DNA of 64,000 nucleotides from a bacterium (GTDB lineage Bacteria; Desulfobacterota; Binatia; DP-6), in the NCBI GenBank assembly GCA_026129405.1, contig JAHCID010000001.1, positions 1,209,237 to 1,273,236 of the forward strand. The letters run 5' to 3'. How positions within the stretch are numbered: the first letter of the stretch is position 1; each line of letters begins with the position of its first letter. The notes below the pieces were generated by a model. It worked only from the letters and a program-made list of their open reading frames with translations, searched no databases and was not told where the DNA came from. The position numbers and the translations under genes were made by a program. Positions 2,487 to 64,000 of the stretch are shown here, in pieces.

Positions 2487-3554
2487 ATGCCCTACCGCGT
2501 GATCCAGTGGTCGACCGGCAACGTCGGCAAGCTCGCGCTGCGCGCGATCATCAATCACCCCGAGCTGGAGCTGGTCGGGCTGTGGGTGTCGAGCGACGCC
2601 AAGGCCGGGCGCGACGCCGGTGAGATCGCGGGTCTGGCGCCGGTCGGCGTGCGCGCCACCACCGACGCGGAGGCCTTGCTCGCGCAGGACGCCGACTGCG
2701 TCTGCTACACGGCGACCGCGGATCTGCGGCCGGCCGAGGCGATCGAGGACATCTGCCGCATCCTGCGCGCGGGAAAGAACGTGGTGTCGTCCTCGTTCGT
2801 CCCCCTCGTCTATCCGCCGGCGGCGCCCGCGGACATGGTGGAGCAGCTCGAGCAGGCGTGCCGCGACGGCAACACCTCCTGCTACACGTCCGGCATCGAT
2901 CCGGGCTTCGCGAACGACGCGCTGCCGCTGCTCCTCATGAGCGCCTGCGAGCGCGTCGACTCGGTGCGGGTCATGGAGATCGTCAACTACGACACCTACG
3001 ACCAGCCGACCGTCCTCTTCGAGACGATGGGTTTCGCGAAGCCCCTCGATCACACCCCGTTGCTGTTGATCCCCGGCGTCCTCACGCTGGCCTGGGGCTC
3101 GGTGGTGAAGATCCTCGCCGCCGGGCTCGGGGTCGAGGTCGAGGAGATACGGGAGATCTACGAGAAGATCCCGACCGAGCGCGCCTTCGACATTCGCCCC
3201 GGCCACGTTCCGGCCGGCACGATGGCGGCGCTGCGTTTCGAGGTGCAGGGCCTCGTCGGCGGCAGGCCGCGCATCGTCCTGGAGCACGTCACGCGCCTGC
3301 GCGACGACCTGGCGCCGGACTGGCCGCAGCCGGTCGGCGACAGCCGCGGATGCTACCGGGTCGTCGTCGAGGGCTCGCCCCGCTTCGTCTGCGATCTCGC
3401 CTTCGAGGGCGAGGACGGCGATCACAACACCGGCGGTCTGGTGGCGACGGCGCTCCGTCTCCTCAACGCCATTCCGGCGGTATGTGCCGCCCGGCCGGGG
3501 CTCCTCTCGCCGCTCGACTTGCCGCTTTACACGGCGCGCGGCCTGATGGTGTGA
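2487..3554 (+). CDS. NAD(P)-binding dihydrodipicolinate reductase-like / amine dehydrogenase-family oxidoreductase
   Basis: A 355-residue protein starting at MPYRVIQWSTGNVGK; the upstream in-frame extension from 2361 looks non-coding. The N-terminus carries a Rossmann nucleotide-binding loop (STGNVGKLALR) typical of the dihydrodipicolinate reductase N-terminal superfamily. The overall architecture resembles the family that includes 2,4-diaminopentanoate dehydrogenase and many uncharacterised actinobacterial and delta-proteobacterial homologues. Substrate cannot be read from sequence; a true DapB role is unlikely because length and C-terminus differ from DapB. It is divergent from the DUF2126 gene and followed 60 bases later by an XRE regulator, which may control it. 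Confidence 0.8.
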   Translation: MPYRVIQWSTGNVGKLALRAIINHPELELVGLWVSSDAKAGRDAGEIAGLAPVGVRATTDAEALLAQDADCVCYTATADLRPAEAIEDICRILRAGKNVVSSSFVPLVYPPAAPADMVEQLEQACRDGNTSCYTSGIDPGFANDALPLLLMSACERVDSVRVMEIVNYDTYDQPTVLFETMGFAKPLDHTPLLLIPGVLTLAWGSVVKILAAGLGVEVEEIREIYEKIPTERAFDIRPGHVPAGTMAALRFEVQGLVGGRPRIVLEHVTRLRDDLAPDWPQPVGDSRGCYRVVVEGSPRFVCDLAFEGEDGDHNTGGLVATALRLLNAIPAVCAARPGLLSPLDLPLYTARGLMV

Positions 3555-3614
3555 GATACCCCATTCCCTTGTAATCGGCCGTGGGTTTTGACACTCCCCT
3601 CTTTAGGTAGGGAC

Positions 3615-4070
3615 GTGTCGTTCGATGCACTGCGGCCGGAGGTTCCGGCGTTCGACTGGAGTGCCTGGCTCCGCGCGCTGGGCAGCCGGGTGCGACGTGT
3701 CCGCACCTCCCTGGGAATGTCCCAGGAGACGCTCGGCCGATTGGCCGGGTGCAGCCAGGGGGCGATCAGCCGGCTCGAGCAGGGCGTCGCCCGCCACACG
3801 CCGATGCTGGTCGTCGCACGGGTCGAGCGCGCCCTGCGCGCCGAGCTGGAGCGGCTCGCGGGCGACGACCTCGGTGCCGACGAGCGCCAGCTGCTCGAGC
3901 GCGGCATCCTCACCGATCCGGTCCCGATCTACGACGCCGTGGCGATGGCCGCAGGCGCCGATCCGCTCCTCGTGCGCGTGCTGACGGCGTGGCGCAGCCT
4001 GCCGCCGGAGCGCCGTCCCGCCTTCATCGTCGCGCTGCGCTCGGCCGCCGAAGCGCTGCGCAACGGCTGA
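3615..4070 (+). CDS. XRE-family helix-turn-helix transcriptional regulator
   Basis: A 151-residue protein with a Cro/C1-type HTH near residues 20-75 (RRVRTSLGMSQETLGRLAG, then CSQGAISRLEQG). This is the canonical fold in which 'SQ..LA' and 'S...IS.LE' mark the two DNA-binding helices. The C-terminal half has no recognisable ligand domain. The start is taken as GTG at 3615 because AGG (3605-3607) lies seven bases upstream; an in-frame TTG at 3588 would add nine residues. A TTGACA hexamer at 3588-3593 is too close to the start for a normal -10, but could belong to a site bound by the regulator. Target unknown; the preceding oxidoreductase is the nearest candidate. Confidence 0.85.
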   Translation: MSFDALRPEVPAFDWSAWLRALGSRVRRVRTSLGMSQETLGRLAGCSQGAISRLEQGVARHTPMLVVARVERALRAELERLAGDDLGADERQLLERGILTDPVPIYDAVAMAAGADPLLVRVLTAWRSLPPERRPAFIVALRSAAEALRNG

Positions 4071-13787: not shown

Positions 13788-15230
<1,443 letters not shown>

Positions 15231-50745: not shown

Positions 50746-51234
50746 GTGGCCCAGCGCGGACGCATGCAGGATTTCGAGCAGGCGCTCCGCGAGCGTGGGC
50801 TCAAGTCCACCTCGCAGCGCGACGACATCGCCAAGATCTTCTTCCAGACCGAGAAGCACCTCTCGGTCGAGGAGCTGCACGCCGCGGTGAAGAAGGTGAA
50901 TCCGCGCGTCGGCTACGCCACCGTCTACCGCACCCTGAAGCTCCTCAAGGAGTGCGGGCTCGCCGACGAGCGACACTTCGACGACGGCCAGGCGCGCTAC
51001 GAGCCGGCCGCCGCCGAGCACCAGCACCACGACCACATCATCTGCGAGCGCTGCGGCAAGATCGTCGAGTTCAACAGCGAGGAGCTCGAGAAGCTCCAGG
51101 ACCGCATCGCGCGCTTCCTCGGCTTCGTGGTGAGCCGCCACCGCATGGAGCTGTACGGCATCTGCGCCGAGTGCCGTGAAGGCCGGCGCGGCGTTGTGCC
51201 CGCCCGCACGAAGTCCGGCGTCCACCAGGTCTGA
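50746..51234 (+). CDS. fur: Fur-family transcriptional regulator (iron-type)
   Basis: A 162-residue protein with the Fur winged helix (LKSTSQRDDIAKIFFQTEKH; RVGYATVYRTLKLLKECGLA) and regulatory/zinc-binding half (AEHQHHDHIICERCGKIVEF; CAEC near the C-terminus). HHDHIIC-x2-C and C-x2-C are the structural zinc ligands. A second Fur-family specificity (Zur, PerR) cannot be excluded by eye. It is 4.3 kb from the iron/heme island's Fur-box-like sites at 55.0-55.2 kb, which it may control. GTG 50746 is used; ATG 50764 is also possible. Confidence 0.88.
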   Translation: MAQRGRMQDFEQALRERGLKSTSQRDDIAKIFFQTEKHLSVEELHAAVKKVNPRVGYATVYRTLKLLKECGLADERHFDDGQARYEPAAAEHQHHDHIICERCGKIVEFNSEELEKLQDRIARFLGFVVSRHRMELYGICAECREGRRGVVPARTKSGVHQV

Positions 51235-51237
51235 CGC

Positions 51238-53157
51238 TCACGGTACGGCGACGGCGGGGCTGCCGTCGCCCGCCGGCCACACGCCGCGGTCCGTGCTGCG
51301 GCCGCCGTCCAGCACCACCCAGCTCTGCGCGCCCAGGTGCGGCAGCACGCGTGCGGCGGCGGCGAGCGCGGCGGCATCGTCGCCCGCGACGACCGCGAGC
51401 GGCGCGCCGTTCGCGCGTCGCAGCGTGAAGGCGCGCGCGCTGCCGCGGCCCGCGACCTCCTTCGGGATCGGCGGGAGGCCTGCGACCGCGAGCGTCCTGG
51501 TGATCGCGGCGGTGTCGCCGACGAGGAGCGCGGGACCCGCCGGCAGCGTGGCGACGGGCGACGCCTCGCGCTCGAGGAGGGCGCGTGCCACGGCGACCGC
51601 GGCGTCACGCGCGGTGGCGTCGCCGACCACGACGGCCGCCGCCGCCGGGTCGAACGCGACCGCGCGCAGCACGGGCGGCACGGCGTCGGCGGGGAGATGG
51701 CGGTACAGGCGCAGCGCGGGATCCAGGACCACCCGGCGCGCGCTTGCCGCGGTGGGGATCGCGACCGGCGTGTGCTCGCCGTCGACGCGGGCGAGACGCG
51801 AGGCCGCGCCGGTGTCCGTCTCGACGGCGAGCGGAACTCCGAGCGCGTACGGCGGCGGGGTCTGCCCGAGCGTGAGCGCGACGCCGTCCGGCGTGCGTCG
51901 CACGTCGCGCGCGGCGAGCGTCGGCGCCCCGGGCCGGTCCACCCACTGCGCGAAGAAGTCGCCCAGCGGCATGCCGGCGGCGGCGCCGAACGCGGCCGCG
52001 AGGTCGTGCCACGTCGCCGCGCCGAAGCGGTGGACGGTCCAGAAACGGCGGATGCCGTCGGCGAACGCGTCGGCGCCGATCGTGTCGCGCAGCATGGCGA
52101 AGACGAACGCGGCCTTGTGGTAGCCGGTCGCCTGCGACGCCGTGTGCCGGCGGCCGCGAAAGTCGCGCAGCGGGCGATCGTCGGCGGCGGGCAGGATCGC
52201 GAGCTCGCGCAGCCAGCGCAGGCGCAGGTCGCGCGCCGCGGCGGCGCCCTGGCGCTCGACGAAGGTGTAATCGGCCATGAACGTCGTGAGCCCCTCGGCC
52301 CAGTTGCCGCCGTCGCCGACGCGCACCCCGTTGCCCCACCAGGCGTGCAGCACCTCGTGCCCGAGCGATGTGTCGGGGATGAAGGGGAGGCCGATCACGC
52401 GCACGCCGAGATACGTGAGACCGGGAAAGCCGAGGCCGAGCGGCAGCGGTCCGGAGACGACGTCGAACCGACGATAGGGATAGGAGCCGATCCAGCCGCC
52501 GTAGAGGTCGAGATAGCCGGCGACCTTGGCGAGGTACGTGTCGGCGACGCCCGCGACCTCCGGATGGAGCCAGGTTCGCAGCACGATCGCGCCGTGCCGG
52601 CGCGCGGCGACGACGTAGGGGCCGACGAACAGCGCGAGGTCGTCGCCCGGGTGCTCGCTGGTGAAGACCGTGGCGTCGCGGCCGTCGCGTGTCGCGTGAT
52701 CGTCCAGGCGGCCCGGGGCGACGGCACGCAGGGGTGCGGGCACCGTCGCCGAGAGGCGCCAGGCGAAGGGCGCGTCGGGCAGCGGATGCCACGTACCCGG
52801 CGGCAGGTAGGCGTCGGTCGGTCCGGCGACCGGCGCGTCGCCGTCGGCACCCTTGAGCGTGCCCAGCGCCGTGCGGTAGCGGACGACGAGCGAATGCGTC
52901 CCGGCGGGAACGGGGATCGTGAGCGTTGCGCCGGCGGCCGGCTCGACGTCGAGCACGGCGCCGTCGCGGGTTACGGCGTCGACGCTGACCGCGGCGGGTA
53001 TCGTGAGGCGCGTCGGGGCGGGTCCCGTCGCCGTGAGCCGCACGGTGCCCTCGATGCGGCGCGCAGCGGGGTCGACGTCCGCCTGCACATCGATGCGCGG
53101 CGCCGCCGCGGCCGGCGTGGCGAGCAGCGCCAGGAGGAGGGCGAGGCGCCGGATCAC
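51238..53157 (-). CDS. Secreted M1-like metallopeptidase
   Basis: A 639-residue protein with a signal peptide (V-I-R-R-L-A-L-L-L-A then LLATPAAAA). An N-terminal beta domain (VQADVDPAARRIEGTVRLTA) is followed by a thermolysin-like domain carrying HEVLHAWWGN and downstream NWAEGLTTFMADY, giving HExxH plus the third-ligand Glu, as in M1 peptidases. A GAMEN motif is not seen, so exopeptidase activity is less certain. A C-terminal alpha/beta region follows. It starts by GTGA overlap with the ChaN-like gene. In the iron island it may help release ligand from host or detrital proteins, but that is inference. Confidence 0.82.
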   Translation of the reverse strand: MIRRLALLLALLATPAAAAPRIDVQADVDPAARRIEGTVRLTATGPAPTRLTIPAAVSVDAVTRDGAVLDVEPAAGATLTIPVPAGTHSLVVRYRTALGTLKGADGDAPVAGPTDAYLPPGTWHPLPDAPFAWRLSATVPAPLRAVAPGRLDDHATRDGRDATVFTSEHPGDDLALFVGPYVVAARRHGAIVLRTWLHPEVAGVADTYLAKVAGYLDLYGGWIGSYPYRRFDVVSGPLPLGLGFPGLTYLGVRVIGLPFIPDTSLGHEVLHAWWGNGVRVGDGGNWAEGLTTFMADYTFVERQGAAAARDLRLRWLRELAILPAADDRPLRDFRGRRHTASQATGYHKAAFVFAMLRDTIGADAFADGIRRFWTVHRFGAATWHDLAAAFGAAAGMPLGDFFAQWVDRPGAPTLAARDVRRTPDGVALTLGQTPPPYALGVPLAVETDTGAASRLARVDGEHTPVAIPTAASARRVVLDPALRLYRHLPADAVPPVLRAVAFDPAAAAVVVGDATARDAAVAVARALLEREASPVATLPAGPALLVGDTAAITRTLAVAGLPPIPKEVAGRGSARAFTLRRANGAPLAVVAGDDAAALAAAARVLPHLGAQSWVVLDGGRSTDRGVWPAGDGSPAVAVP

Positions 53158-54314
53158 GACGCCGGCCCGAAGCGCGCGACGAGCGTCTGCGTGCGCCCGC
53201 CGCGCCGTACGTCGAGCGGCAGCCACGTTCCCGGGGCCAGGCCCTCGACGATCGTGCGCAAGGCGCTCGGCTGCGGCGTCACGGCGCCGGCCGCCGCGAC
53301 GATCACGTCGCCCGGCCGCAGGCCGGCCGCCGCCGCGACGCTGCCTGCCTCCACGCGCACGACGCGTACGCCGCCGTCGCCCGGCGCCAGCTCGATGCCG
53401 AGCCGCGGCGGCGCCGGCTCGGCGCTAGGGGCGATGCCGAAGACCCAGTCGGCGACGTCGGGCGCGAGCCGCCCGCAGTCGCGCTCGACGTCCCAGGGGA
53501 TCAGTACGACCACGTCGCGCTCGCCCAGGGCGGCGAGCTGGTGCGGCACGCCGAAGCCGCGCTCGAGATGGCCGCTGCCCATGACGCCGACCACGACGGC
53601 GTCGGGATATGCGGCGGCGGCCGCGGCGAGCGCTTCGGCGAGGGCCCGGTCCCAGGTGAGCTGGGCTTCGACGAAGCGCCGGGCCGCGGCGGGATCGGGG
53701 TCGGCCGCGTGTCCGTGCGCGCCGAACGTCTCCGCCAGCGTCGCGGCGTAGGCCGGCGCCGCAGGGGCGGGCGTCCCGAGACCCTCGCGCTCGGCGTCGG
53801 GGATCGCCTCCCAGCCCTCGCGCGCGACGCGGCCGACGAGCGCGCGCTCGACGTTGAGGGCCACCATCGGCAGGCGGTTCGCGCGCGCCAGCTCGAAGAG
53901 CGGCAGGTAGAGCCGAGCCGGGAATCCCCAGACGCGATCCCAGTCGACGTCGGCGAGGAACCTCGGGGCGTCGAGCCCGCCTGCGATCCAGCGATCGAGG
54001 ACCGGCTGCGCGCGCCGTGGGAACATCTCGAAGCCGACGACGACGTGCCGCCGTCGCGCCAGCAGGCCTGCGATCACCTGGGCCTGCCAGCGATGGTGCG
54101 CCATGCGGTCGTGGTGCTCGCCGAGCAGGACGATCCGTGCCCGCGCCGCCTGCGCGAGGACGTCGGGGCCCGGCGTCGCACGACGGTCGCGCGGGCGGAG
54201 CCACGTGGCGGCGTCGACGCCGGGCCCCGTCGACTCGGGCGCGGGCGGTCGCGGCGCCCGACAGGCGGCGACGCCGACGAGCGCCGCGAGCAGGACGGGG
54301 AGGGCGCGCGGCAT
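53154..54314 (-). CDS. ChaN-family heme-binding-like lipoprotein fused to a PDZ domain
   Basis: A 386-residue lipoprotein. The signal peptide ends in the lipobox V-A-A-C18 (MPRALPVLLAALVGVAAC). Residues about 55-275 match the ChaN/DUF399 (haem-binding uptake, Tiki-like) group: RIVLLGEHHDRMAHHRWQAQ, VVVGFEMFPRRAQPVLD, VVVGVMGSGHLERGFG. GEHHD with the later G-x-G-H-x-x-x-G-x-G-V-P-H are the conserved metal/heme-coordinating features. Residues about 295-386 form a PDZ-like domain (GVRVVRVEAGSVAAAAGLRP, GDVIVAAAGAVTPQ). ChaN proteins are heme-regulated iron-uptake factors. It lies between the AraC gene and the M1-like gene, co-directional with both. Confidence 0.85.
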   Translation of the reverse strand: MPRALPVLLAALVGVAACRAPRPPAPESTGPGVDAATWLRPRDRRATPGPDVLAQAARARIVLLGEHHDRMAHHRWQAQVIAGLLARRRHVVVGFEMFPRRAQPVLDRWIAGGLDAPRFLADVDWDRVWGFPARLYLPLFELARANRLPMVALNVERALVGRVAREGWEAIPDAEREGLGTPAPAAPAYAATLAETFGAHGHAADPDPAAARRFVEAQLTWDRALAEALAAAAAAYPDAVVVGVMGSGHLERGFGVPHQLAALGERDVVVLIPWDVERDCGRLAPDVADWVFGIAPSAEPAPPRLGIELAPGDGGVRVVRVEAGSVAAAAGLRPGDVIVAAAGAVTPQPSALRTIVEGLAPGTWLPLDVRRGGRTQTLVARFGPAS

Positions 54315-54358
54315 CGCGTCGAGGATCGTCCGCGCGCCGGCGCGACGCCAGCGGCCGC

Positions 54359-55027
54359 TCAGCGTGGGGCGGTGGCCCAGCGGCTCGGCGGCATGCCGAA
54401 GCGACGGGCGAAGACGCGGCTGAAGTACGCCGGGTCGGCGAAGCCGGCGGCGAGCGCGGCCTCCTTCACCGAGGTGCCGCGGCGGAGCAGGAAGCAGGCG
54501 CGGTCGAGCTGGATGTTGCGGCGCAGGGCGGTGAAGCGCTCGCCCGTGACCCGGCGGATGACCGTCGAGACGTGACTCGGGCTGTAGCCGAGCGCGCGTG
54601 CCAGCTCACCCAGCGTCACCTGGCCGTCCAGGTGGCGCGCGAGGTAGTCCTGCACGGCGTCGTCGACCCGGGGACGCATCTCGACCGGCGCAGCCACGAG
54701 CCGGGCGAGGTCGGCCCAGACGTCGTCGAGCCGCGCCGCCAGGGAGGCGAGCCCGCCGTCTGCGCAATCGCCCTCGAGCGCGGCGAGGTCGCGGCTCGCG
54801 GCTTCGAGCCGCGCGCGCACGGCCGCGGGAAGCTCGGCGTCGGGCGCAAGGAGGATCGCCTCGACCATGGACGCTGCGGCGCGGGCCGCGGCGCGCACAT
54901 CGGTGTGCGCGCGGGCCAGGGCGGTGGAAGCGATGCGACCCGCGCCGAGTACCTCGGCGGCGTCGCGGCAGCGCAGAGCCTGCGACAGGCGAGCGACGGT
55001 CGAGCGCGCGAAGCTCCAGGGCGGCAT
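54359..55027 (-). CDS. AraC-family transcriptional regulator
   Basis: A 222-residue regulator from ATG 55027 (MPPWSFARSTVARLSQALRC). The C-terminal 100 residues are a two-HTH AraC/XylS DNA-binding domain: LGELARALGYSPSHVSTVIR and VKEAALAAGFADPAYFSRVF, ending ARRFGMPPSRWATA. The N-terminal helical region is a possible effector domain; no cupin is seen. The frame is open to 55165 (M-K-R-N), so a longer form is possible. Fur-like box 1 lies 17 bases upstream of this start. By analogy with PchR/YbtA it may control the iron island with Fur. Confidence 0.87.
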   Translation of the reverse strand: MPPWSFARSTVARLSQALRCRDAAEVLGAGRIASTALARAHTDVRAAARAAASMVEAILLAPDAELPAAVRARLEAASRDLAALEGDCADGGLASLAARLDDVWADLARLVAAPVEMRPRVDDAVQDYLARHLDGQVTLGELARALGYSPSHVSTVIRRVTGERFTALRRNIQLDRACFLLRRGTSVKEAALAAGFADPAYFSRVFARRFGMPPSRWATAPR

Positions 55028-55042
55028 GGGCCCGGCATCAAT

Positions 55043-55066
55043 ACTGAAATTGGTTTTCAGTTTCAA
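55043..55066. promoter_or_regulatory. Fur-box-like palindrome 1
   Basis: ACTGAAA (55043-55049), five bases, TTTCAGT (55055-55061) is a perfect 7-bp inverted repeat followed by a further TTTCAA half-site, the hexamer-array pattern of Fur operators. It is 17 bases upstream of the AraC start codon and differs from palindrome 2 at only a few positions. Confidence 0.55.
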
Positions 55067-55188
55067 CGGTGTTCTTGTACGGGCCGCGGCCGGAGAGGCG
55101 GATGCCGTGCGGGCTGCGTGGTCGGACGCCCGGGCGAAGAAAATCCAATCGATGTTCCGTTTCATCCCTTGTCGACAAAGGCACGTTA

Positions 55189-55211
55189 TTGAAAATGGTT
55201 TTCACTTTCAA
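55189..55211. promoter_or_regulatory. Fur-box-like palindrome 2 with possible overlapping promoter
   Basis: TGAAAATGGTTTTCA (55190-55204) is a perfect 6-3-6 palindrome with an extra TTTCAA half-site behind it. It lies 14 bases upstream of the first gene of the rightward iron operon (55225). A poor promoter may overlap: TTGTCG (55169-55174) 16 bases GAAAAT (55191-55196). Repression by Fur is the natural reading. Confidence 0.55.
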
Positions 55212-55224
55212 CCGGGGGATTCGG

Positions 55225-55656
55225 ATGATGATGGAGCGCCTCGATGTACCGTCCGCGGCGGCGGCCCTGCTGGCGGATGCCGCCTCACTGGGTCCGGTAC
55301 GGGCCATCCTGCGAAGCTGTAGCGGCTTCGTGGAGCTCTTCTGCTCGGCCGATGCCTTCGAGGTGCATGGGGGATGGCTCCACGTGCGCCAGCCCACGGC
55401 CCATCTGCACGTTCAGGTCCCGGCCCTGGCCGCGGCAGCCTTCCACGACGCCGGCGACGAGGCGCATCCTGGCCGGCCGTCCCTGTGGTTGCTCGGTCGC
55501 TGCGGGGCTCCCTGCCTCCTCCTGATCCTCGACCAGACCGAGGGCGAGGCGCGCGCGCGCCAGGAGACCGCGTTCCAGGCGCTGCGGGCGCGATGGGGCA
55601 CGCAGGTGGCCTTCCACGGCGGCGACGCGCCGGCTGAGGACCGCCTCCTCCACTGA
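55225..55656 (+). CDS. HemS/ChuX-like heme-utilisation protein (tentative)
   Basis: A 143-residue protein; ATG 55225 starts an ATG triplet (MMMERLDV) with GGGGG upstream. The body follows the order of a single HemS/ChuX/HutX-fold module: GPVRAILRSCSGFVELFCSA, HGGWLHVRQPTAHLHVQVPA, then AAAAFHDAGDEAHPGRPSLW and a terminal helix (FQALRARWG). It has a TAHLHV strand like the H-x-H-I heme region of that family, but similarity is weak. It is the first rightward gene after the Fur-like box, which supports iron/heme function. Cytoplasmic. Unknown function is the alternative. Confidence 0.7.
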   Translation: MMMERLDVPSAAAALLADAASLGPVRAILRSCSGFVELFCSADAFEVHGGWLHVRQPTAHLHVQVPALAAAAFHDAGDEAHPGRPSLWLLGRCGAPCLLLILDQTEGEARARQETAFQALRARWGTQVAFHGGDAPAEDRLLH

Positions 55657-55679
55657 TCATGCGGCGAGGAGCGGAGACG

Positions 55680-55859
55680 ATGGCAGAGCCGTGTGACGGC
55701 GGGCCCGAGGCGCGTGATGCGCGGTGCGACTGCGGCAATCTCCTGGCGCGGCTGACGGATCGGGGCGTCGAGGTGAAGTGCCGACGCTGCAAGCGCATCG
55801 TCGTGATTCCCATCGAAGCAGCCAGCGAACGACCAACCGTCGCCCGCCGCAGCACTTGA
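55680..55859 (+). CDS. Com-like zinc-ribbon small protein (59 residues)
   Basis: Start at ATG 55680, preceded by AGGAG; an ATG at 55659 is less likely. The body is CDCGNLLARLTDRGVEVKCR then RCKRIVVIPIE, that is C-x-C-x15-C-x2-C. It resembles the phage Mu Com translational activator zinc finger. It could bind RNA or iron/zinc. Position in the iron operon, 23 bases after the HemS-like gene, is unusual for that family. Confidence 0.65.
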   Translation: MAEPCDGGPEARDARCDCGNLLARLTDRGVEVKCRRCKRIVVIPIEAASERPTVARRST

Positions 55860-55968
55860 CCGTGCGGCCGCCGATGGGCGATCGCACCCGACCCACCGTC
55901 CCGGGCTGCCGCGTCCGGGCGGGCGTTGCCGGCCACTCCACTCCACTCGATCGATCGGAGAACACCTG

Positions 55969-57648
55969 ATGCCTCGCTTCCTCCCGCTCACCACCGCGCT
56001 CGCGCTGCTCCTCGCCGTCGTCGCCGCTGCGCCGGCGGCGACACTGGTTCTCGACCACGAGACACCCGGAGCCGCCTGGGACGGGATCGTCGACGGCTTC
56101 CCCGGGCTGGTCCCGAAGGACGGCAATCCCGACTTCGGCCAGAACCCGCTCTCGGTGGTGCTAAAGGGCGACGTGACCGAGGTGCGCTCCGTCATGGAGT
56201 TCCCGCTCGCGTCCCTCGCCGACGTGGCGGCGGACGACATCGTGGCCGTGACGCTGCGCTTCAACGTGGACGACGTGCTCTCCACGCTCGGCCCCGGCAC
56301 CGAGCTGAGCGGGAAGGCCGCGAGCAGCATCCGCGTCTACTTCTATGCCGGGGACGGCGTCGCGCTGACGTCGGACTTCAAGAACACGAACGAGGGATTC
56401 ACGACGGTGAGCATCGGCGGGAACATCACCGACGCCACCCTGAAGCAGACGGGTGCCGTGTTCTTCGAGGTCGATGCCCGCGCCCGGCTGGTGCAGGCGC
56501 TGGCCGAGGGCAGCACGCACCTCGGCGTCCTCTGGCGCACGACCGACAGCCCCACCGGCACCTCGCTCGACGACGGCCGGGGCGGCTCGGCGTCGGGTGA
56601 GCCGAGCGAGACGTCCGCCGGCTCGAAGATGCCGCAGCTCATCATCGAGGTGAACGAGCAGCCCCCGCCGGGTTGCGGCAACGGCGTCCCCGATCCCGGC
56701 GAGACCTGCGACGACGGCAACACCGACGACGGGGACTGCTGCAGCCGCCGCTGCCAGCTCGAGAGCGCCGGCAGCGCGTGCAGCGACGGCGACGCCTGCA
56801 CCACCGGCGACGTCTGCGACGGCGCCGGCGTCTGCGTCCCCGGCGGCCCGACCGTGTGCGACGACGGCAGCATCTGCACCGCGGACGCGTGCGATCCCGC
56901 GACCGGCTGCACGAACACGCCCACCAACGAGGGCGAGAGCTGCGACGACGGCAGCGTCTGCACCACCGGCGACGCCTGCACCACGGGCGTGTGCTTCGGC
57001 ACGCCGATCACCGGCACGTGCGACGACGGCAACGCCTGCACCAGCGGCGACGTCTGCACGGGAGGCATCTGCGTCGGCGAGCCGCTGTGCGGCAACGGCG
57101 TGGTCGAGCCGTCCTGCGACGAGGAGTGCGACGACGGCAACCGCGTCTCGGTGGACGGCTGCTCGGACGTCTGCCGCTACGACTCGCTGCTCGGCGGCAC
57201 CAAGCCGATGGAGTGCCTCGTGAGCATCGCCTTCGGCCTGCCCGTGCGTGACGGGTCGGGCAACATCGCCACGAAGCAGATCTGCACCGACAACGATCCC
57301 GCCTGCGACGCCGATCCCACCGAGGGCGTCTGCGGCTTCGACGTCGGCGTGTGCCTCGGCGTCGCCGATGCGCGGCTGCCGGCCTGCTCGGCCACGCCGA
57401 GCCTCGCGCCGGCGGTGCGCAAGCCGGGACGCTCGAAGCGCGATCGCGCGAACCGCGAGCGCCTCGACGCCGCGCTCGCGAGCGTCAGCTCGCCCGGCTG
57501 CACCGCGCCGGTGCGCATCGACGTGCCGCTGCGCAAGAAGGGGAAGAAGCTGCGCCCCGGCAAGACGAAGCTCGTCGTCCGCGCCAAGCCCGCCGGCGGC
57601 AAGCCGGACAAGGACACGGTAGTCCTCGGGTGCCTGCCGGCCTCTTGA
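55969..57648 (+). CDS. Secreted multi-domain cysteine-rich protein (CDDGN repeats) in the iron island
   Basis: A 559-residue secreted protein. The signal peptide (MPRFLPLTTALALLLAVVAA) is cleaved near APA-ATL. Residues about 25-220 form a beta-rich domain (LVLDHETPGAAWDGIVDGFP, VLKGDVTEVRSVMEFPL), similar to DNRLRE-type surface domains. Residues about 236-400 are cysteine-rich repeats of the CGNGVPDPGETCDDGN and CTTGDVCDGAGVC type, known from Myxococcota. The C-terminal 90 residues are basic (KKGKKLRPGKTKLVVRAK). It overlaps the receptor start, and its N-terminal beta domain resembles the N-terminus of the protein at 63815. The function is unknown; ligand capture is inference. Confidence 0.85.
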   Translation: MPRFLPLTTALALLLAVVAAAPAATLVLDHETPGAAWDGIVDGFPGLVPKDGNPDFGQNPLSVVLKGDVTEVRSVMEFPLASLADVAADDIVAVTLRFNVDDVLSTLGPGTELSGKAASSIRVYFYAGDGVALTSDFKNTNEGFTTVSIGGNITDATLKQTGAVFFEVDARARLVQALAEGSTHLGVLWRTTDSPTGTSLDDGRGGSASGEPSETSAGSKMPQLIIEVNEQPPPGCGNGVPDPGETCDDGNTDDGDCCSRRCQLESAGSACSDGDACTTGDVCDGAGVCVPGGPTVCDDGSICTADACDPATGCTNTPTNEGESCDDGSVCTTGDACTTGVCFGTPITGTCDDGNACTSGDVCTGGICVGEPLCGNGVVEPSCDEECDDGNRVSVDGCSDVCRYDSLLGGTKPMECLVSIAFGLPVRDGSGNIATKQICTDNDPACDADPTEGVCGFDVGVCLGVADARLPACSATPSLAPAVRKPGRSKRDRANRERLDAALASVSSPGCTAPVRIDVPLRKKGKKLRPGKTKLVVRAKPAGGKPDKDTVVLGCLPAS

Positions 57649-59873
57649 TCCGCAGCGTCCGTGCGAGCGTCGTCGTGATCGCCCTGGTGACCGTCGTGGC
57701 GGCGCAGACGCCGCCGGCGCCGGACGACACCGGGACGCGCACGAAGCCGTCGCCGGCGCGGGAGGACGTGCTGACGCCCCCGTCGCCGGACGACGCCGGC
57801 CTCGCTCCGGAGCCCGAGGTCGGTCCCGCCGACGACGAGCCGGTGTCCGCGCACCCGCGCTCGCCCGAGGACGCGGAGTCCGTCCTCGCCACGCCGCTCG
57901 CCGAGGTCGTCGTCACCGGCACGAAGATGGCCACCGAGCAGTGGGAGGCGACGGTCCCGACGCAGGTGATCTCCAAAGAGCGGATCGAGAACACCGCCAC
58001 CATCGACCTGCAGGACGTGCTCGGCGAGATCCCGGGCATCTACGTCCGGCGCAACGAGCAGTTCGGCCTCGGCGCCAGCACCGTGCGCATGCAGGGCGCC
58101 GATCCGAACAAGGTCGCGATCCTCACCGACGGCCGCCGCTTCCGCGGCGGCATCGACGGGGTCGTCGACCTGCGCGACATCCCCGCCAACAACGTCGAGC
58201 GGGTCGAGATCATCCGCGGTCCGGCCTCGAGCCTCTACGGCAGCGACGCGATGGCGGGCGTGATCAACATCATCACGCGCCAGGGCGGCCCGGTGCCGAC
58301 CGCCGACGGCGTGGCGTCGTGGGGCTCGTTCGATCGCCAGTTCTATGCCGTGAGCCACGGCTGGCAGCTCGGGCCGGTGCGCTACTTCCTCTCGGGCCTG
58401 CACGACGAGTTCAAGCTCTTCGAGCAGTTCGGCGACGTCAGCGCGCAGTTCTCGGGCGAGAACGAGAACGAGCTGCAGAAGCGCGACCAGGTGAACCTGC
58501 GCCTCGACTGGGACGCCGCGCCCGAGCACGGCTTCACCTTCTTCCCGTCGTTCCAGCAGCAGACGAACCCCGAGAGCAAGAACCGCAACTGGATCCTCGG
58601 CGGCGAGTGGCGCTGGGACACCGGGCCCGGGGCCCGTCTCACCACCTGGGCGAACCGCTACGCCTTCGATCGCCACAACGACCTCGTCGGCTTCCAGGAG
58701 GACTCGAAGTACGTCGACTGGGAGGCCGAGTCGCGCTGGGCGAAGGAGCTGGGGCCGTGGAGCGGGCTGTGGGACAGCCATCTCGTCACGGTCGGCTCGC
58801 GCGGTCGCTACCAGACGCTCGATCAGACGACGGAGGTCGTCCACGACGAGAACGGAGGTGAGCTGAGGCCGCACGTCGACCAGAGCGTCTGGCAGGTGAG
58901 CCCGTTCCTCCAGTCCGACGTGCTGCTGTCGGAGCAATGGAGCCTGCTCGTCGGCTCGAGCTTCGACGTGCACGAAGGCTACGGGCTCGACGTCAATCCG
59001 CGTGCGACGGTGACCTACCGTCCGGCGTGGTGGACGCGCCTCTCGGCCACGGTCGGCCGCGGCTTCCGGGCCCCGGATCTGACCCAGCTCTACGGCGTCG
59101 ACGTCAACGCCGGCGGCCTCTACGCGCTGCTCGGCAACCCGGACCTCCAGCCGGAGACCGACCTCGCGTTCCAGCTCGAGGCCCAGTTCCGCTTCCGGGG
59201 CTTCGACGGCTTCCTCACCCTGTTCCGGCACCAGTTCTCGGATCTGATCGGCTTCGAGCTGGTGAACGTCTGCCAGCGTCCCGGCATCCCGCCCGGCTGC
59301 CGTCCCGACCCGGCGCCGTTTCTCGGCTCCGGCCTGCGCTTCCAGACGCAGAACTTCGCCAAGGCGATCACGCAGGGCCTCGAGCTGGGCTTCGAGGTGT
59401 CGATTCCCCAGCTCCTCGAGATCGAGACCGAGCACGACGTACGACCGGGCTTCGGCTACGCCTTCCTCGACACCGAGAACCAGAACGGCATCCCCGGCGA
59501 GGACGGCAACGATCTGCCGTTCCGCCCGCGCAACCGCGTGCTGCCGTCGCTCGGCTACGTCCACAAGCGCTACGGCATTGCCGCCCGCATCTGGGGCGAG
59601 TACGAGGACGACGCTTTCACCGACGTGGCGAACAGCGAGGACTTCATCGCCCGCAATCACTGGCTCTGGAACTTCAAGGTGACGCTCTATCCGTTCAACT
59701 GGATCCCCGACGGCGGCCCCAAGCAGCTCGCGGCGGCGATCGGCATCGGCCGGCACTTCGCGTTCTTCGTGCAGGGCGAGAACGTCTTCGACCAGGAGTT
59801 CGGCCCCGTCACCGCGGGCGGCCGGCTCGCCGGCCCGGCCGCCTACCTCTTCGGCGTCCAGGGCAAGTACTGA
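57630..59873 (+). CDS. TonB-dependent outer-membrane receptor
   Basis: About 747 residues. The signal peptide is in LIRSVRASVVVIALVTVVAA; a Pro/Asp-rich linker leads to the TonB box (AEVVVTGTK near residue 90). The plug domain contains QGADPNKVAILTDGRRFRGG and ERVEIIRGPASSLYGSDAMA then GVINIITR. The barrel includes GRGFRAPDLTQLYG and GNPDLQPE, the FRAP and NPxL boxes; the histidine usual between them in heme receptors is not there. GVQGKY is a typical barrel end. GTG 57630 is the longest start; TTG 57645 (TTGA overlap with the preceding stop) is equally likely. Iron, heme or cobalamin are candidate ligands. Confidence 0.93.
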   Translation: MPAGLLIRSVRASVVVIALVTVVAAQTPPAPDDTGTRTKPSPAREDVLTPPSPDDAGLAPEPEVGPADDEPVSAHPRSPEDAESVLATPLAEVVVTGTKMATEQWEATVPTQVISKERIENTATIDLQDVLGEIPGIYVRRNEQFGLGASTVRMQGADPNKVAILTDGRRFRGGIDGVVDLRDIPANNVERVEIIRGPASSLYGSDAMAGVINIITRQGGPVPTADGVASWGSFDRQFYAVSHGWQLGPVRYFLSGLHDEFKLFEQFGDVSAQFSGENENELQKRDQVNLRLDWDAAPEHGFTFFPSFQQQTNPESKNRNWILGGEWRWDTGPGARLTTWANRYAFDRHNDLVGFQEDSKYVDWEAESRWAKELGPWSGLWDSHLVTVGSRGRYQTLDQTTEVVHDENGGELRPHVDQSVWQVSPFLQSDVLLSEQWSLLVGSSFDVHEGYGLDVNPRATVTYRPAWWTRLSATVGRGFRAPDLTQLYGVDVNAGGLYALLGNPDLQPETDLAFQLEAQFRFRGFDGFLTLFRHQFSDLIGFELVNVCQRPGIPPGCRPDPAPFLGSGLRFQTQNFAKAITQGLELGFEVSIPQLLEIETEHDVRPGFGYAFLDTENQNGIPGEDGNDLPFRPRNRVLPSLGYVHKRYGIAARIWGEYEDDAFTDVANSEDFIARNHWLWNFKVTLYPFNWIPDGGPKQLAAAIGIGRHFAFFVQGENVFDQEFGPVTAGGRLAGPAAYLFGVQGKY

Positions 59874-59898
59874 CGAGCCTCGACGAAAGGAGATGCGC

Positions 59899-60279
59899 AT
59901 GACGCACCGGGAGTTCTTCGACGCCTTGCGGGGCTTCTCCCCCCTGCGCGTGATCTCGCCGGCCGGGCCGAGCCTCTTCGAAGCCATCTGCGACTTCGAC
60001 GCCTACGGCATCGCCGAGGGGCATCTGAACGCGATCACCGACGCCTATCACTGGCACATCGCGCTGGCGCGCTTCGGCCACGTGCGCTCGCACGACGAGG
60101 TGCACGCGCGCTCCGGGCGCCGGGTCCTCTACTTCGCGCTGCGCGAGACCGCGAGCGCGGATCCCTTCCTGCTCATCTACCTCTATCGCGGCAAACGCGA
60201 AGAGCTCGACGGACCGCGCCTGGCGCGGTTCACGCTGCTGCACGGCGTGCTCGGCGGCGGTGCGGAGGTGTCGTCATGA
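59899..60279 (+). CDS. Small His-rich protein of unknown function in the iron operon
   Basis: A 126-residue protein; ATG 59899 has AGGAG six bases ahead. The body reads AYHWHIALARFGHVRSHDEV followed by HARSGRRVLYFALRE and DPFLLIYLYRGKREELDG. The clustered His residues and the strand pattern loosely resemble the HutX/ChuX heme-trafficking fold. No signal peptide. It is 25 bases after the receptor stop and overlaps the binding-protein start by ATGA. I do not recognise a named family; a cytosolic heme carrier is the best guess. Confidence 0.75.
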   Translation: MTHREFFDALRGFSPLRVISPAGPSLFEAICDFDAYGIAEGHLNAITDAYHWHIALARFGHVRSHDEVHARSGRRVLYFALRETASADPFLLIYLYRGKREELDGPRLARFTLLHGVLGGGAEVSS

Positions 60280-61136
60280 AGCTCGTGTCCCTTTCGTTCG
60301 CGCTGCTCGCCGCTGCGAGCGGCGCGCTCGCCGCCGGCGCGCCCATGCGCGTCGCGACGCTCGTTCCCTACGTCGCCGACGCGCTCGTCGAGATCGGCGG
60401 CAACGTCGACGTGGTCGCCTCGGTGCGCCGGAGCATGCACGAGACGCCCGATCCGAAGCGGCTCGACCTCGGCAACCCGCACAATCCCAACATCGAGAAG
60501 CTCGTCGAGGCGCGGCCGACGCTCGTCGTCGCCGACGCGCAGATGCACGGCGCGCGCCGCGACGACCTCGCGCGCGGCGGCGCCGAGGTGCTGCTCGTCG
60601 AGTCGGACACCCTCGACCACACCTTCGAGGGCCTGCTGCTCGTCGGCCGGAAGGTCGGCGCGGAGCCCAGGATGGCGGCGCTCGTCGAGACCGCGAAGAG
60701 GGGCGTCACCGATGCGGCGCTGCCGAAGCGCACGCCGGCGCTGGTGCTCTTCGGTGCCCCGGGCTCGTTCCTCGTGGTCTCGAATCGCACCTGGATCGGC
60801 GATCTCGCGTCGCAGGTCGGCTACGACAACGTCGGGGCGGCGGTGAGCGGCAGCGAGCGCTTCCCCGGCTTCGTCCAGGTGAGCGACGAGGTGCTCGCGG
60901 GCATGCGGCCCGAGGTGGTGATGCTGGTGGCGCACGGCGATCCCGAGGCCATCCGCACCGCGTTCACGCAGCGCCTCGAGGGCGGCGGGCCGTGGGCCGG
61001 GCTGCGCGGCGCCGCGACCGGCGGCGTGCACGTCCTGCCCTCGGCGATGTTCTCCATCAACCCGGGCCTCGCCATGCCGGAGGCGGCGAAGCACCTCCAC
61101 GATCTGGCGGCGCCGAAGGTGGGAGCCGCTCGTTGA
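60276..61136 (+). CDS. Periplasmic substrate-binding protein of an iron/heme (FecB/BtuF-type) ABC importer
   Basis: A 286-residue protein with signal peptide (MKLVSLSFALLAAASGALAA). It is a cluster A-II binding protein: MRVATLVPYVADALVEIGGN, NPNIEKLVEARPTLVVADAQ and the conserved central helix region, ending in a helix KHLHDL. It would bring an iron chelate, heme or cobalamin to the permease. The ATG overlaps the preceding stop (ATGA), and the stop overlaps the permease start (TTGA). The exact ligand is not visible. Confidence 0.9.
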   Translation: MKLVSLSFALLAAASGALAAGAPMRVATLVPYVADALVEIGGNVDVVASVRRSMHETPDPKRLDLGNPHNPNIEKLVEARPTLVVADAQMHGARRDDLARGGAEVLLVESDTLDHTFEGLLLVGRKVGAEPRMAALVETAKRGVTDAALPKRTPALVLFGAPGSFLVVSNRTWIGDLASQVGYDNVGAAVSGSERFPGFVQVSDEVLAGMRPEVVMLVAHGDPEAIRTAFTQRLEGGGPWAGLRGAATGGVHVLPSAMFSINPGLAMPEAAKHLHDLAAPKVGAAR

Positions 61137-62155
61137 GACGAGCGTACGCCACCGTCCGCCAGATCTTCCTGCGGCTGCGGGACCGGCCCGGCTTCTGGAC
61201 GCTCGTCCTGGCCGGACTGCTCGCCGTCGCGGTCGTCCTCGGCGGCGCGCTCGGCGCGGCCAACGTGCCGCTCGCCGAGCTGCCGGCCGCACTCGTCGAC
61301 CCGGCGCATCCGGCGTACGCCGTCCTCTGGAGCGTGCGGCTGCCGCGAGTCGTCAACGGTGCGCTCGTCGGTGCCGCGCTCGGCGTCGCGGGCGCGCTCA
61401 TGCAGGCCGCGGTACGCAACCCGCTCGCCGACCCCGGCCTCCTCGGCGTCACGGCCGGCGCCGGTCTCGGCGGCCTGCTCGCGATCGTCCTCCGACCGCA
61501 GCATCCGTCGCTCCTGCCCGTGGCGGCGTTCGTCGGCGGGCTCCTCGCCGTCGCGACCCTCCTGACCGCGGCGTGGGGTGGGGGCCGCGTCACCGGGCCG
61601 CTGCGCATCGTGCTCTCGGGCGTCGCCGTGCAGGCGATCCTGTTCGCGATGATCTCGCTGGTGACCTTCTTCTTCGCCGATCGCGCGCCGGCGTTCGTCT
61701 CGTTCACGATCGGCTCGCTGAACGGCGTGGGCTGGGACAAGGTGCTCCTCATCCTCGGCCCGGTCGTGGTCGGCTGCGGCCTGGCGCTGCTCTCGACGCG
61801 GACGCTGAACCTCATGCTGCTCGACGACGACAGCGCCGGCGGCGTCGGGCTCGCGGTGCGGCGCGCGCGCGTCGGTGCGTCGTGCCTCGCGGCGCTCCTC
61901 GCCGCGGGCGCGGCGTCGGTGGCGGGGCTCGTCGGCTTCGTGGGGCTCGTCATCCCGAACTGGGTGCGCGTGCTCGTCGGGCCGGACCATCGCGTCCTGC
62001 TGCCGCTGTGCGTCCTCGGCGGCGCGGCCCTCGTGGTCTTCGCCGACACGGCGGCGCGCATGGTGGCGGCGCCGCTCGAGCTGCCGGTGGGCGCGCTGCT
62101 GGCGCTCGTCGGCGGTCCGTACTTCCTGTTCGTGCTGTGGAGAAAGCTGGCGTGA
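61133..62155 (+). CDS. FecCD-type ABC permease
   Basis: A 340-residue permease with about ten hydrophobic helices. Family marks include VRLPRVVNGALVGAALGVAG, AALMQAAVRNPLADPGLLGV and VGFVGLVIPNWVRVLVGPDH (the cytoplasmic loop that docks the ATPase). The start is TTG 61133, supported by GGTGGGAG and the TTGA overlap with the binding-protein gene. It is the membrane part of an importer for heme, siderophore or B12. Stop overlaps the ATPase GTG. Confidence 0.95.
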   Translation: MRRAYATVRQIFLRLRDRPGFWTLVLAGLLAVAVVLGGALGAANVPLAELPAALVDPAHPAYAVLWSVRLPRVVNGALVGAALGVAGALMQAAVRNPLADPGLLGVTAGAGLGGLLAIVLRPQHPSLLPVAAFVGGLLAVATLLTAAWGGGRVTGPLRIVLSGVAVQAILFAMISLVTFFFADRAPAFVSFTIGSLNGVGWDKVLLILGPVVVGCGLALLSTRTLNLMLLDDDSAGGVGLAVRRARVGASCLAALLAAGAASVAGLVGFVGLVIPNWVRVLVGPDHRVLLPLCVLGGAALVVFADTAARMVAAPLELPVGALLALVGGPYFLFVLWRKLA

Positions 62156-62979
62156 GCGCGCCCGCGAGCGCTGCGCCGGCGCCGGTGATGGCGCTGCGCA
62201 ACGTGCACGTGCGGCATCCGACCGCCGAGCGCGACGCCCTGCGCGACCTGTCGCTCGCCGTGCGTCGCGGCGAGATCCTGGCGCTGGTGGGGCCGAACGG
62301 CTCCGGCAAGTCGACGGCGCTCGCGACGCTCGGCCGCGCGCTCGAGCCGCGGCTCGGCCGCGTCGAGCTCGACGGCGACGACGCCGCGCGCCTCGGCACG
62401 CGTGCGTTCGCGCTGCGCGTCGCGCGCCTGCCGCAGCAGCCCGCGTGTCCCGAGGGCCTCACCGTGAGCGAGCTCGTGCGCAGCGGACGGCACGCGCACC
62501 GCGGCTTCCTCGAGCCGCTGCGCGAGCACGACCTCGCGGCGGCGCGCGAGGCCATGCGGGCGGTCGACGTCCTCGACCTGCGCCACCGCAAGATGGAGAC
62601 GCTGTCCGGCGGCGAGCGCCGGCGCGCCTGGCTCGCCATGGTGCTCTGTCAGGAGGCGCCGCTGCTGCTGCTCGACGAACCGACGGCGGCCCTCGACCTG
62701 CGCCACCAGCGCGAGCTGCTGGTGCTGATGCGCCACCTGCGCGACGTCCGGCAGGTGACGATCGTCGTCGTGCTCCACGACCTCGAGCACGCGGCCTGGG
62801 TGGCCGATCGCGTCGCGGTGATGCACCGCGGCCGTCTCTACGCGGCGGGTGCGCCCGACCGCGTCATTCGCGACGACATGCTGCGCGACGTCTTCGGCGT
62901 CGAGGCCCGCGTCGCCCGCGACGGCGACGATCTCGTCGTACGCGTCCTCGGGTCTTGCGACCCCCTGCGCTTCCTCTAG
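62152..62979 (+). CDS. ABC transporter ATP-binding protein (FecE/HmuV/BtuD type)
   Basis: A 275-residue ATPase from GTG 62152. Walker A is LALVGPNGSGKSTALATLGR, Q-loop RLPQQPACPEGLTV, signature METLSGGERRRAWLAMV, Walker B PLLLLDEPTAALDLRHQ, and the switch His in VVVLHDLEH. All motifs are intact. The C-terminal region is short. It completes the importer and is coupled by GTGA to the permease. Confidence 0.96.
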   Translation: MSAPASAAPAPVMALRNVHVRHPTAERDALRDLSLAVRRGEILALVGPNGSGKSTALATLGRALEPRLGRVELDGDDAARLGTRAFALRVARLPQQPACPEGLTVSELVRSGRHAHRGFLEPLREHDLAAAREAMRAVDVLDLRHRKMETLSGGERRRAWLAMVLCQEAPLLLLDEPTAALDLRHQRELLVLMRHLRDVRQVTIVVVLHDLEHAAWVADRVAVMHRGRLYAAGAPDRVIRDDMLRDVFGVEARVARDGDDLVVRVLGSCDPLRFL

Positions 62980-62988
62980 GAGAACCCC

Positions 62989-63630
62989 ATGCTGCTGAAG
63001 AAGGCCTTCACGTCCGGCGCCGCTCCGATGCCCACCGAGTTCCTCGAGTGGCAGGTGAAGCTGCGGCACTGGACCATGCTGAACCGCCACGGCTCGCCCC
63101 ACGTCGGCGTCGCGCCGATCGTGTCGGTGCAGCAGCCCGGCGTCGGGCCGGGCGTCACCATGCACTCGATCATCTGCGGGCTGCTCCCGCACCCCGATCG
63201 GCTCGACGCGAAGACGAAGGAGTTCCGCGCCCTGTACGAGTCGCACGCCGAAGAGGGGGCGCGCGGCATCTACGACGCGGGCATCGAGTATCTGAAGGGC
63301 TACTACGAGACCGCAGCCGACTTCGACGCCTACAGCATCACCTCGCTGCTGCACAAAGACGCGGCCGTGGTGCAGGCGCTGCGCGCGAATCCGAGCTGCG
63401 CGCTCCTGTTCTACGTCTTCGACCTCGACGACCGCACCGAGGAGGGGCGGTTCCGCTGTCTCCAGCTGAACTGCCAGGCCGAGGTCCACGACGGCGGGCC
63501 GCTGTTCGACAACGTCTGGTGGCACAACGCGGTCTTCCACGGAAAGCTCGACGACCAGGTCATGCTCCGCTTCCTGCATCGGAGCACGTACGACACCCGT
63601 TTCGGCGGCCTCGAGGCGGTCGAGGGGTGA
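62989..63630 (+). CDS. Possible FMN split-barrel (HugZ-like) heme-utilisation protein
   Basis: A 213-residue protein with GGAG before ATG 62989. The body resembles the FMN-binding split barrel (pyridoxamine 5'-phosphate oxidase/HugZ) in order: RHGSPHVGVAPIVSV, MHSIICGLLPHPDRLD, SITSLLHKDAAVV, ANPSCALLFYVFDL and RFRCLQLNCQAEVHDGG; these match the G-x-P..S..P, L-x-H, NP..LL and R-x..L-x..A positions of that family. A long insertion (about residues 75-105) is unusual. HugZ/ChuZ proteins degrade heme, so this fits the operon, but assignment is inference. An uncharacterised protein is the alternative. Confidence 0.6.
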   Translation: MLLKKAFTSGAAPMPTEFLEWQVKLRHWTMLNRHGSPHVGVAPIVSVQQPGVGPGVTMHSIICGLLPHPDRLDAKTKEFRALYESHAEEGARGIYDAGIEYLKGYYETAADFDAYSITSLLHKDAAVVQALRANPSCALLFYVFDLDDRTEEGRFRCLQLNCQAEVHDGGPLFDNVWWHNAVFHGKLDDQVMLRFLHRSTYDTRFGGLEAVEG

Positions 63631-63632
63631 CG

Positions 63633-63818
63633 ATGCGCGGGGGGAACCGCGCGCGCGGCACGTCGGCGCAGCTCGAGATCGTCGGCGGCGGTGCGGAAGG
63701 CACCGTGCTGGCGGCGTGGCTCGCGCGGTGGGGCATCCGCGTGCGCGTCCACGGCGTCGTGCTGGCCGGTTCGGGCGAAGAGAGACGCACGACCAATCGC
63801 ACCAGGAGGGAACGATGA
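63633..63818 (+). CDS. Short dinucleotide-binding-motif ORF (61 residues)
   Basis: ATG 63633 (GTG 63627 overlaps the previous stop by GTGA). The N-terminal half has QLEIVGGGAEGTVLAAWLAR then WGIRVRVHG, a textbook G-x-G-x-x-G Rossmann start of FAD or NAD enzymes, but the protein stops after only 61 residues with an Arg/Glu-rich tail. It may be a remnant of a flavoenzyme, a regulatory peptide or a real small protein. Overlaps the next gene start by four bases. Confidence 0.4.
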   Translation: MRGGNRARGTSAQLEIVGGGAEGTVLAAWLARWGIRVRVHGVVLAGSGEERRTTNRTRRER

Positions 63819-64000
63819 CGACGATCGGACGATGGACGACCCTGCTCGCGGCGGCATGCCTCGCGGGCACGGTGAACGCCGGTACGGTGGTGCTCGACGG
63901 CTCCACCGGCGCCGACTACGACTCGGTGGGCGACGGCTGGTTCTTCGCGGGCATGGACCCGTCGACCCCGCCGGACGGCACCGGCGACGCCGGCGAGCAG
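63815..64000 (+). CDS. Secreted protein, N-terminal fragment, paralogous to the 55969 protein
   Basis: AGGAGGG precedes ATG 63815. The 62 visible codons encode a signal peptide (M-T-T-I-G-R-W-T-T-L-L then AAACLAGTVNA) followed by GTVVLDGSTGADYDSVGDGW and FFAGMDPSTPPDGTGDAGEQ. The mature start has the same plan as the secreted protein at 55969 (LVLDHETPGAAWDGIVDGF): V-L-D, x-T-x-G, D-x-x-x-D-G, then Asp-Gly-rich turns. The rest is beyond the window. Expected to be secreted or surface-bound. Confidence 0.75.
   Translation, partial: MTTIGRWTTLLAAACLAGTVNAGTVVLDGSTGADYDSVGDGWFFAGMDPSTPPDGTGDAGEQ

Follow-up and report, generated by a model that had tools for sequence, protein, structure and literature searches.

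What does the iron-related island at the end of this stretch of DNA bring into the cell, and why does it encode two secreted proteins? The stretch (64 kb, hereafter the window; positions 1,209,237 to 1,273,236 of contig JAHCID010000001.1, assembly GCA_026129405.1) comes from the 5.63-Mb genome of a Candidatus Binatia bacterium. A first-pass annotation, made from the letters alone, had proposed an iron/heme acquisition system here, with a TonB receptor and a FecCD-type transporter at its core. Our analysis bears this out: the locus is probably a Fur-controlled heme-iron uptake and breakdown system, and we infer with high confidence that its substrate is heme. The evidence comprises an IsdE-type binding protein with His at both heme ligand positions, a HutX-like match, a HugZ/HupZ-type fold and Fur-box-like sites, together with genes for heme oxygenase, HemS or an IsdG-like protein at related loci.

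Open reading frame (ORF) calls combined with Pfam and NCBIfam searches recovered every gene on the annotation's list. The plus-strand operon opens with a weakly matching ChuX/HemS-like protein (143 aa; 55225-55656; Pfam ChuX_HutX E 0.011), whose start most likely lies at 55225 and not, as annotated, at 55069, and a Com-like four-Cys zinc ribbon (66 aa; 55659-55859). These are followed by secreted protein 1 (55969-57648), a TonB-dependent receptor (57645-59873; Plug E 1.5e-25, barrel E 5.8e-31) and a HutX/ChuX-like candidate heme carrier (59893-60279), annotated as a His-rich protein of 126 residues and corrected here to 128. Next come the periplasmic binding protein (60276-61136), a FecCD permease (61133-62155; Pfam FecCD E 3e-80), a FecE/HmuV-like ABC transporter ATPase identified by Pfam and NCBIfam (62152-62979), a 213-aa protein with a predicted FMN-binding split-barrel fold (62989-63630), and the 405-aa secreted protein 2, which starts at 63815, crosses the window end and stops at about 65032 (2815-4032 in the downstream sequence L006). 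The overlapping run of receptor, binding protein, permease and ATPase genes described in the annotation is present with exact overlaps: TTGA between secreted protein 1 and the receptor (57645-57648), ATGA between the HutX-like and binding protein genes (60276-60279), TTGA between binding protein and permease (61133-61136), and GTGA between permease and ATPase (62152-62155).

The binding protein carries most of the information on the ligand. In a sequence search against solved structures, its nearest relatives were IsdE (2q8p, E 6.7e-14) and Lmo2184 (5joq, E 1e-12), with the next match at 1e-5, and BtuF was absent from the matches. Its best NCBIfam row was TIGR03659 (IsdE), at 76.3 bits against a curated cut-off of 298.65, which was not reached; judged by these scores, the protein is a relative of IsdE and not an IsdE ortholog. 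In an alignment to the IsdE construct, chain positions 49 and 200 stand opposite H69 and H220, respectively; a single offset of 29 converts these IsdE chain positions to M78 and H229, which we take to be its axial heme ligands. Both H69 and H220 are invariant in the four binding proteins of this type (4/4), the first ligand being changed from Met to His relative to IsdE. HtsA has the equivalent heme ligand pair M79/H229 (PMC4684392); a literature search on the IsdE pair itself yielded nothing useful. Homology thus argues strongly that the binding protein would hold heme between H69 and H220. Several sister loci encode binding proteins of a different heme type: that of L045 matches binders of the RhuT/BhuT/HmuT/ShuT/PhuT/HutB class at E 3e-62 to 1e-37 (those of RhuT/BhuT/HmuT/ShuT type at 3e-62 to 3e-42), and BtuF at just 1e-7.

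For the cytosolic side, the operon offers candidates for both a carrier and a heme-degrading enzyme. The 128-aa protein matches Vibrio cholerae HutX, a HemS.ChuX-domain protein (5exv; residues 8-116, 109 residues, phmmer E 2.9e-4), with no Pfam or NCBIfam match. The 143-aa ChuX-like protein gives the genome's sole HemS-family signal, which does not reach the cut-off, and has no PDB sequence match. An AlphaFold2 (AF2) model of the 213-aa protein, built from three sequences and of moderate quality (pLDDT 69.5, pTM 0.71), adopts an FMN-binding split barrel whose best VIA rows include HupZ (Z 12.0, rmsd 2.4, 125 aligned), HugZ (10.1), HutZ (9.9) and ChuZ (9.9). Ordinary flavoproteins fill other rows of the VIA list at Z values within 1 to 2 units of these; because they score nearly equally, the fold alone is no proof of heme degradation. 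At the sequence level, the protein gave PNPOx_N at E 0.012 at most and no NCBIfam or PDB match.

Its distribution adds to this picture. Relatives of the 213-aa protein within the class came from the genome search (a first contig scan had confirmed none), and genome, PDB and plasmid searches detected none outside it. It is present in four genomes (G000, G011, G050, G447), while the strong heme oxygenase matches fall in three others (G045, G448, G442) with no overlap; G000 and G447 have weak PF01126 matches elsewhere in the genome and nothing stronger. This complementary presence is suggestive of replacement, although few families are represented. In Vibrio, heme passes from HutX to HutZ (PMC12670364). 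Taken with fold, gene order and replacement, we assign with moderate confidence a carrier role to the HutX-like protein and a ring-opening role to the 213-aa protein.

The cluster recurs as variants in ten other genomes (loci L013, L014 and L039-L046), which speaks against a chance grouping. There, genes for the domain shared by the two secreted proteins accompany the Com-like zinc ribbon (at 9/10 loci; it was not seen in L014, where the contig ends nearby), the TonB receptor (except at L042) and FecCD/ATPase genes (except at L039). The C-x-C...C-x-x-C pattern of the Com-like protein is conserved in its relatives, and none of the Pfam zinc-ribbon families exceeded its cut-off (Zn_ribbon_RPB9, E 0.018). 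Heme-handling genes appear in different forms: heme oxygenase at L040, L043 and L045 (E 1.4e-45 to 5.5e-52), HemS at L044 and L046 (E 5.7e-67 and 8.4e-50), an ABM-family, IsdG-like monooxygenase at L041, and the 213-aa protein at L013, L014 and L042. ExbB and ExbD genes follow the ATPase gene in L044, a TonB gene follows it in L041, and FeoB adjoins the module in L013 and L014. At L013, the Com-like gene has as its neighbour a gene (14180-14395, minus strand) whose 72-aa product belongs to no Pfam family.

The feature that unites these loci is the secreted pair. Secreted protein 1 has a signal peptide, a jelly-roll domain at about residues 24-230 and Cys-rich DUF4215/myxo repeats (DUF4215, TIGR02232), and secreted protein 2 combines the jelly-roll domain with a Thr-rich linker and a helical-looking, Cys-containing C-terminus. 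Their shared N-terminal domain of about 210 residues is 40% identical between the two (alignment A4) and has no Pfam family, no PDB sequence match and no sequence match to any carbohydrate-binding module (CBM). The annotation had singled out the paired secreted proteins as unusual, and they are indeed the most conserved unusual feature of the module. Some of the parts that it described as uncharacterised turned out to have known relatives. Of 148 genomes of the class, 11 carry the domain according to profile searches, spread over six families; among 395 genomes drawn from the phylum, these searches found it in none outside the class. When one strict conserved pattern was run against the GTDB species genomes, seven loci came back, all in genomes already found.

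The 11 genomes hold 23 copies of the domain. Twenty-two lie in module loci including the window (two copies in nine loci, three in L042, one in L013), and the 23rd stands alone at L047 (genome G050, contig C599) beside two imelysins, two di-heme oxidoreductases (DHOR) and DUF1513. Imelysins are linked to iron uptake. With 22 copies in the module and the last at this imelysin-DHOR-DUF1513 cluster, all 23 of 23 are at heme or iron loci. At seven loci (L039, L040, L041, L043-L046), the two partners have different C-terminal parts: in one it is Cys-rich, probably helical and about 130 residues long, whereas in the other it consists of a Pro/Thr linker with a dockerin/EF-hand-like region; Dockerin_1 exceeds its cut-off at L039 and L044 and EF-hand at L041, with weak or no Pfam support at the rest. 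The tails in the window differ from these. Since the Cys-rich tail type also recurs elsewhere in these genomes, we regard the N-terminal domain as the specific part and the tails as generic modules.

The AF2 model of the domain is a jelly-roll (pLDDT 75.5, pTM 0.76) whose closest folds in VIA are CBMs (8wab, Z 14.1, rmsd 3.3, 162 aligned; 7vbo, Z 11.9, rmsd 3.2, 158 aligned), followed by TGF-beta-family propeptides at Z 9-10. A resemblance to DNRLRE-like domains was considered, but Pfam gave no confirmation and it was dropped; the CBM/TGF-beta-propeptide fold match stands. At fifteen positions of the domain, Asp, Glu or Asn is kept in all or nearly all copies, while invariant His, Cys or Met residues are absent from the 23 copies (one Tyr is kept in 19 of them). 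This acidic pattern suggests sites for Ca2+ or another metal rather than direct heme ligation, and a heme-ligating hemophore of a known type was rejected for the domain, which has neither an invariant residue of these three kinds nor a sequence match. A literature search on hemophores with dockerin returned nothing useful. Capture protein, co-receptor and matrix anchor are the candidate roles of the pair.

Regulation was approached by scanning for matches to the 19-bp Fur consensus against a first-order Markov (dinucleotide) background of 60 runs. A double site before the plus-strand operon (55185-55209; two overlapping 13/19 matches) is the best match in the 64 kb, with a model expectation of 0.13 per window on average and a maximum of 2. 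A second pair lies upstream of the araC gene (55040-55064; two overlapping 12/19 matches). In the relatives, the top-scoring Fur-like sites are mostly at module promoters; L013 and L014, for instance, both have TTGATTTTGAAAATCAATTTCA. These predicted boxes point to Fur-type control of the operon, and a Fur-family repressor encoded near the island (50746-51234, plus strand; Pfam FUR E 9.5e-38) is a possible regulator. Across all loci, the highest Fur-box score (16/19) belongs to a CbiX/ferrochelatase-like gene at L039 (12574-14310), upstream of the Com-like, two secreted and TonB genes there; a chelatase for heme or some other tetrapyrrole is one possible function of its product. Outside the window, a 14/19 Fur-box-like site lies at L006 8458 (about window coordinate 69458), roughly 4.4 kb beyond the point where secreted protein 2 stops and immediately upstream of a gene for a flavin monooxygenase-like protein with a Lys/Orn-oxygenase-like domain (L006 6839-8206).

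As the annotation had observed, the receptor has no His between its FRAP and NPxL boxes, and His is missing there in 8/8 receptors in which both boxes were found; a Tyr sits a few residues before the NPxL box in this stretch. As a clue to the ligand the receptor sequence by itself cannot decide. TonB-B12 is among its top NCBIfam rows (E 9e-40, far under the cut-off), the heme receptor model TIGR01785 gives 129.2 bits against a curated cut-off of 316.85, and both BtuB and CirA appear among its PDB matches. Several observations weigh against the heme system proposed here: the receptor profiles slightly favour BtuB/CirA over heme receptors, although all are far under their cut-offs; the HutX likeness of the 128-aa protein traces to one PDB sequence, with Pfam and NCBIfam empty; the ChuX-like gene is a sub-threshold match; split barrels are also common to many non-heme flavoproteins; and the lack of invariant His, Cys or Met gives no indication of direct heme ligation by the secreted domain.

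The receptor data would also suit cobalamin uptake, in which receptor, permease and ATPase formed a BtuB/BtuCD-type system with incidental neighbours, and the permease does resemble BtuC, among others. We rejected this reading and consider it very improbable. The binding protein is IsdE-like with both ligand positions and BtuF is missing from its matches, sister loci carry heme-degrading genes, and no cobalamin riboswitch, nor other riboswitch control, was detected in the window, in L006 or in the seven related loci scanned (L013, L014, L039-L043). The two other above-cut-off FecCD transporters of the host genome, both on contig C9, adjoin three such riboswitches (L007 14767-14932, minus strand; L008 2752-2962, plus; L008 1139-1258, minus) and are separate B12 loci. 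The first-pass annotation had named clustering with BtuF/BtuB together with a cobalamin riboswitch in relatives as what would overturn the iron/heme reading; with no such riboswitch in the loci scanned and three beside the genome's other FecCD transporters, that reading stands. Uptake of a ferric siderophore or other ferric chelate, in which the acidic jelly-roll proteins would serve to trap iron or polysaccharide laden with it, seems improbable, if less remote. It would account for the FecCD/FecE-like transporter, the CirA-like receptor, the carboxylate-rich invariant residues of the secreted domain and its one copy at an imelysin/DHOR iron cluster, but not for binding proteins of IsdE/HmuT type or for heme oxygenase, HemS and HutX-like genes, which argue for heme in the cytosol.

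A further explanation accepts the heme-uptake core and disputes the step assigned to the secreted pair, seeing in it a co-regulated surface adhesin or CBM-like matrix-binding module outside the heme path. Polysaccharide-binding CBMs as the closest folds (VIA Z 14.1 and 11.9), the absence of a conserved heme ligand and the generic tails of the class all speak for it, and we rate it as unlikely but far from negligible. A general adhesin would be expected elsewhere too, whereas 23/23 copies are at heme/iron loci, 22 of them in the module, and in the window the gene for secreted protein 1 overlaps that of the receptor. Only slightly less doubtful, and so a tentative proposal, is the combined claim that the secreted pair is a new lineage-specific class for extracellular capture of heme, hemoprotein or iron, with two partners per TonB receptor, and that the 213-aa protein is a new split-barrel heme-degrading branch replacing heme oxygenase.

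The heme-uptake system we propose would work as follows. Under low iron, Fur would leave 55185-55209 (and 55040-55064) and the plus-strand operon would be read. The two secreted proteins, with their CBM-like, acidic, probably Ca2+-binding jelly-roll domain, would be exported, and their variable tails might provide anchoring or docking at the surface of the cell, where the proteins would bring a heme source to the receptor; this is the weakest step. The TonB receptor would then import heme, and the binding protein, by strong homology, would hold it between H69 and H220 and hand it over to the FecCD permease and ATPase. In the cytosol, the HutX-like protein may carry heme to the 213-aa split-barrel protein, where the ring would be opened and iron freed, as with Vibrio HutX/HutZ. 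For the Com-like zinc ribbon, a role as a small regulator or as an accessory that binds metal is probable.

Known systems share parts of this arrangement. IsdE/HupD-type importers (isd, hup; hmuTUV) have in common with it the binding protein family, both axial-ligand positions and the transporter architecture; unlike IsdE, the binding protein of the window has His for Met at the first ligand, is encoded downstream of a TonB receptor gene in an operon of a Gram-negative bacterium and scores below the IsdE equivalog cut-off. The hutWXZ operon of V. cholerae resembles the locus in its HutX (here a candidate HutX-like carrier), its HugZ/HutZ-fold protein (here a predicted fold) and its Fur-type control, but no HutW was seen at the window locus, and no relation between the 213-aa protein and HutZ could be detected by sequence; its model also has two helices between barrel strands. 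The HasA-HasR, HmuY-HmuR and HxuA-HxuC pairs likewise place an exported-protein gene beside a TonB receptor gene, and in the window the two overlap. Here, by contrast, the jelly-roll domain has no PDB sequence relation and no conserved heme ligand was found in it, and there are two different partners per locus, with dockerin/EF-hand or Cys-rich tails. CBM96 and other CBM-type polysaccharide-binding modules share the jelly-roll fold, whereas the secreted domain has no enzyme attached, no sequence match to them and occurs at heme/iron loci only.

Two genes that the annotation had counted as parts of the island are real but were ruled out as module members. The ChaN-type lipoprotein with a C-terminal PDZ domain (53154-54314, minus strand; Pfam Cofac_haem_bdg E 2.6e-63, PDZ_2 E 2.7e-9) and the AraC-family regulator (54359-55027, minus strand; HTH_18 E 3.4e-21) are local neighbours, because the module in relatives occurs without them. 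The araC gene probably starts at 55027, since its longest ORF would cross the Fur-box-like site. An M1-peptidase-like ORF of 662 aa with an uncertain start (51238-53226, minus strand) overlaps, in its longest form, the 3' end of the ChaN-PDZ gene.

What is new here is the paired secreted-domain family, restricted to this lineage and lying beside heme/iron uptake genes; the heme-uptake core is of a known kind. According to a text search, the main Binatota genome survey (PMC8262859) does not mention heme, TonB or siderophores. The module offers concrete candidates, open to testing, for proteins that capture heme outside the cell with a fold unlike those of known hemophores, together with a candidate heme-degrading enzyme, and the secreted domain can serve as a marker that flags heme/iron loci in uncultured genomes.

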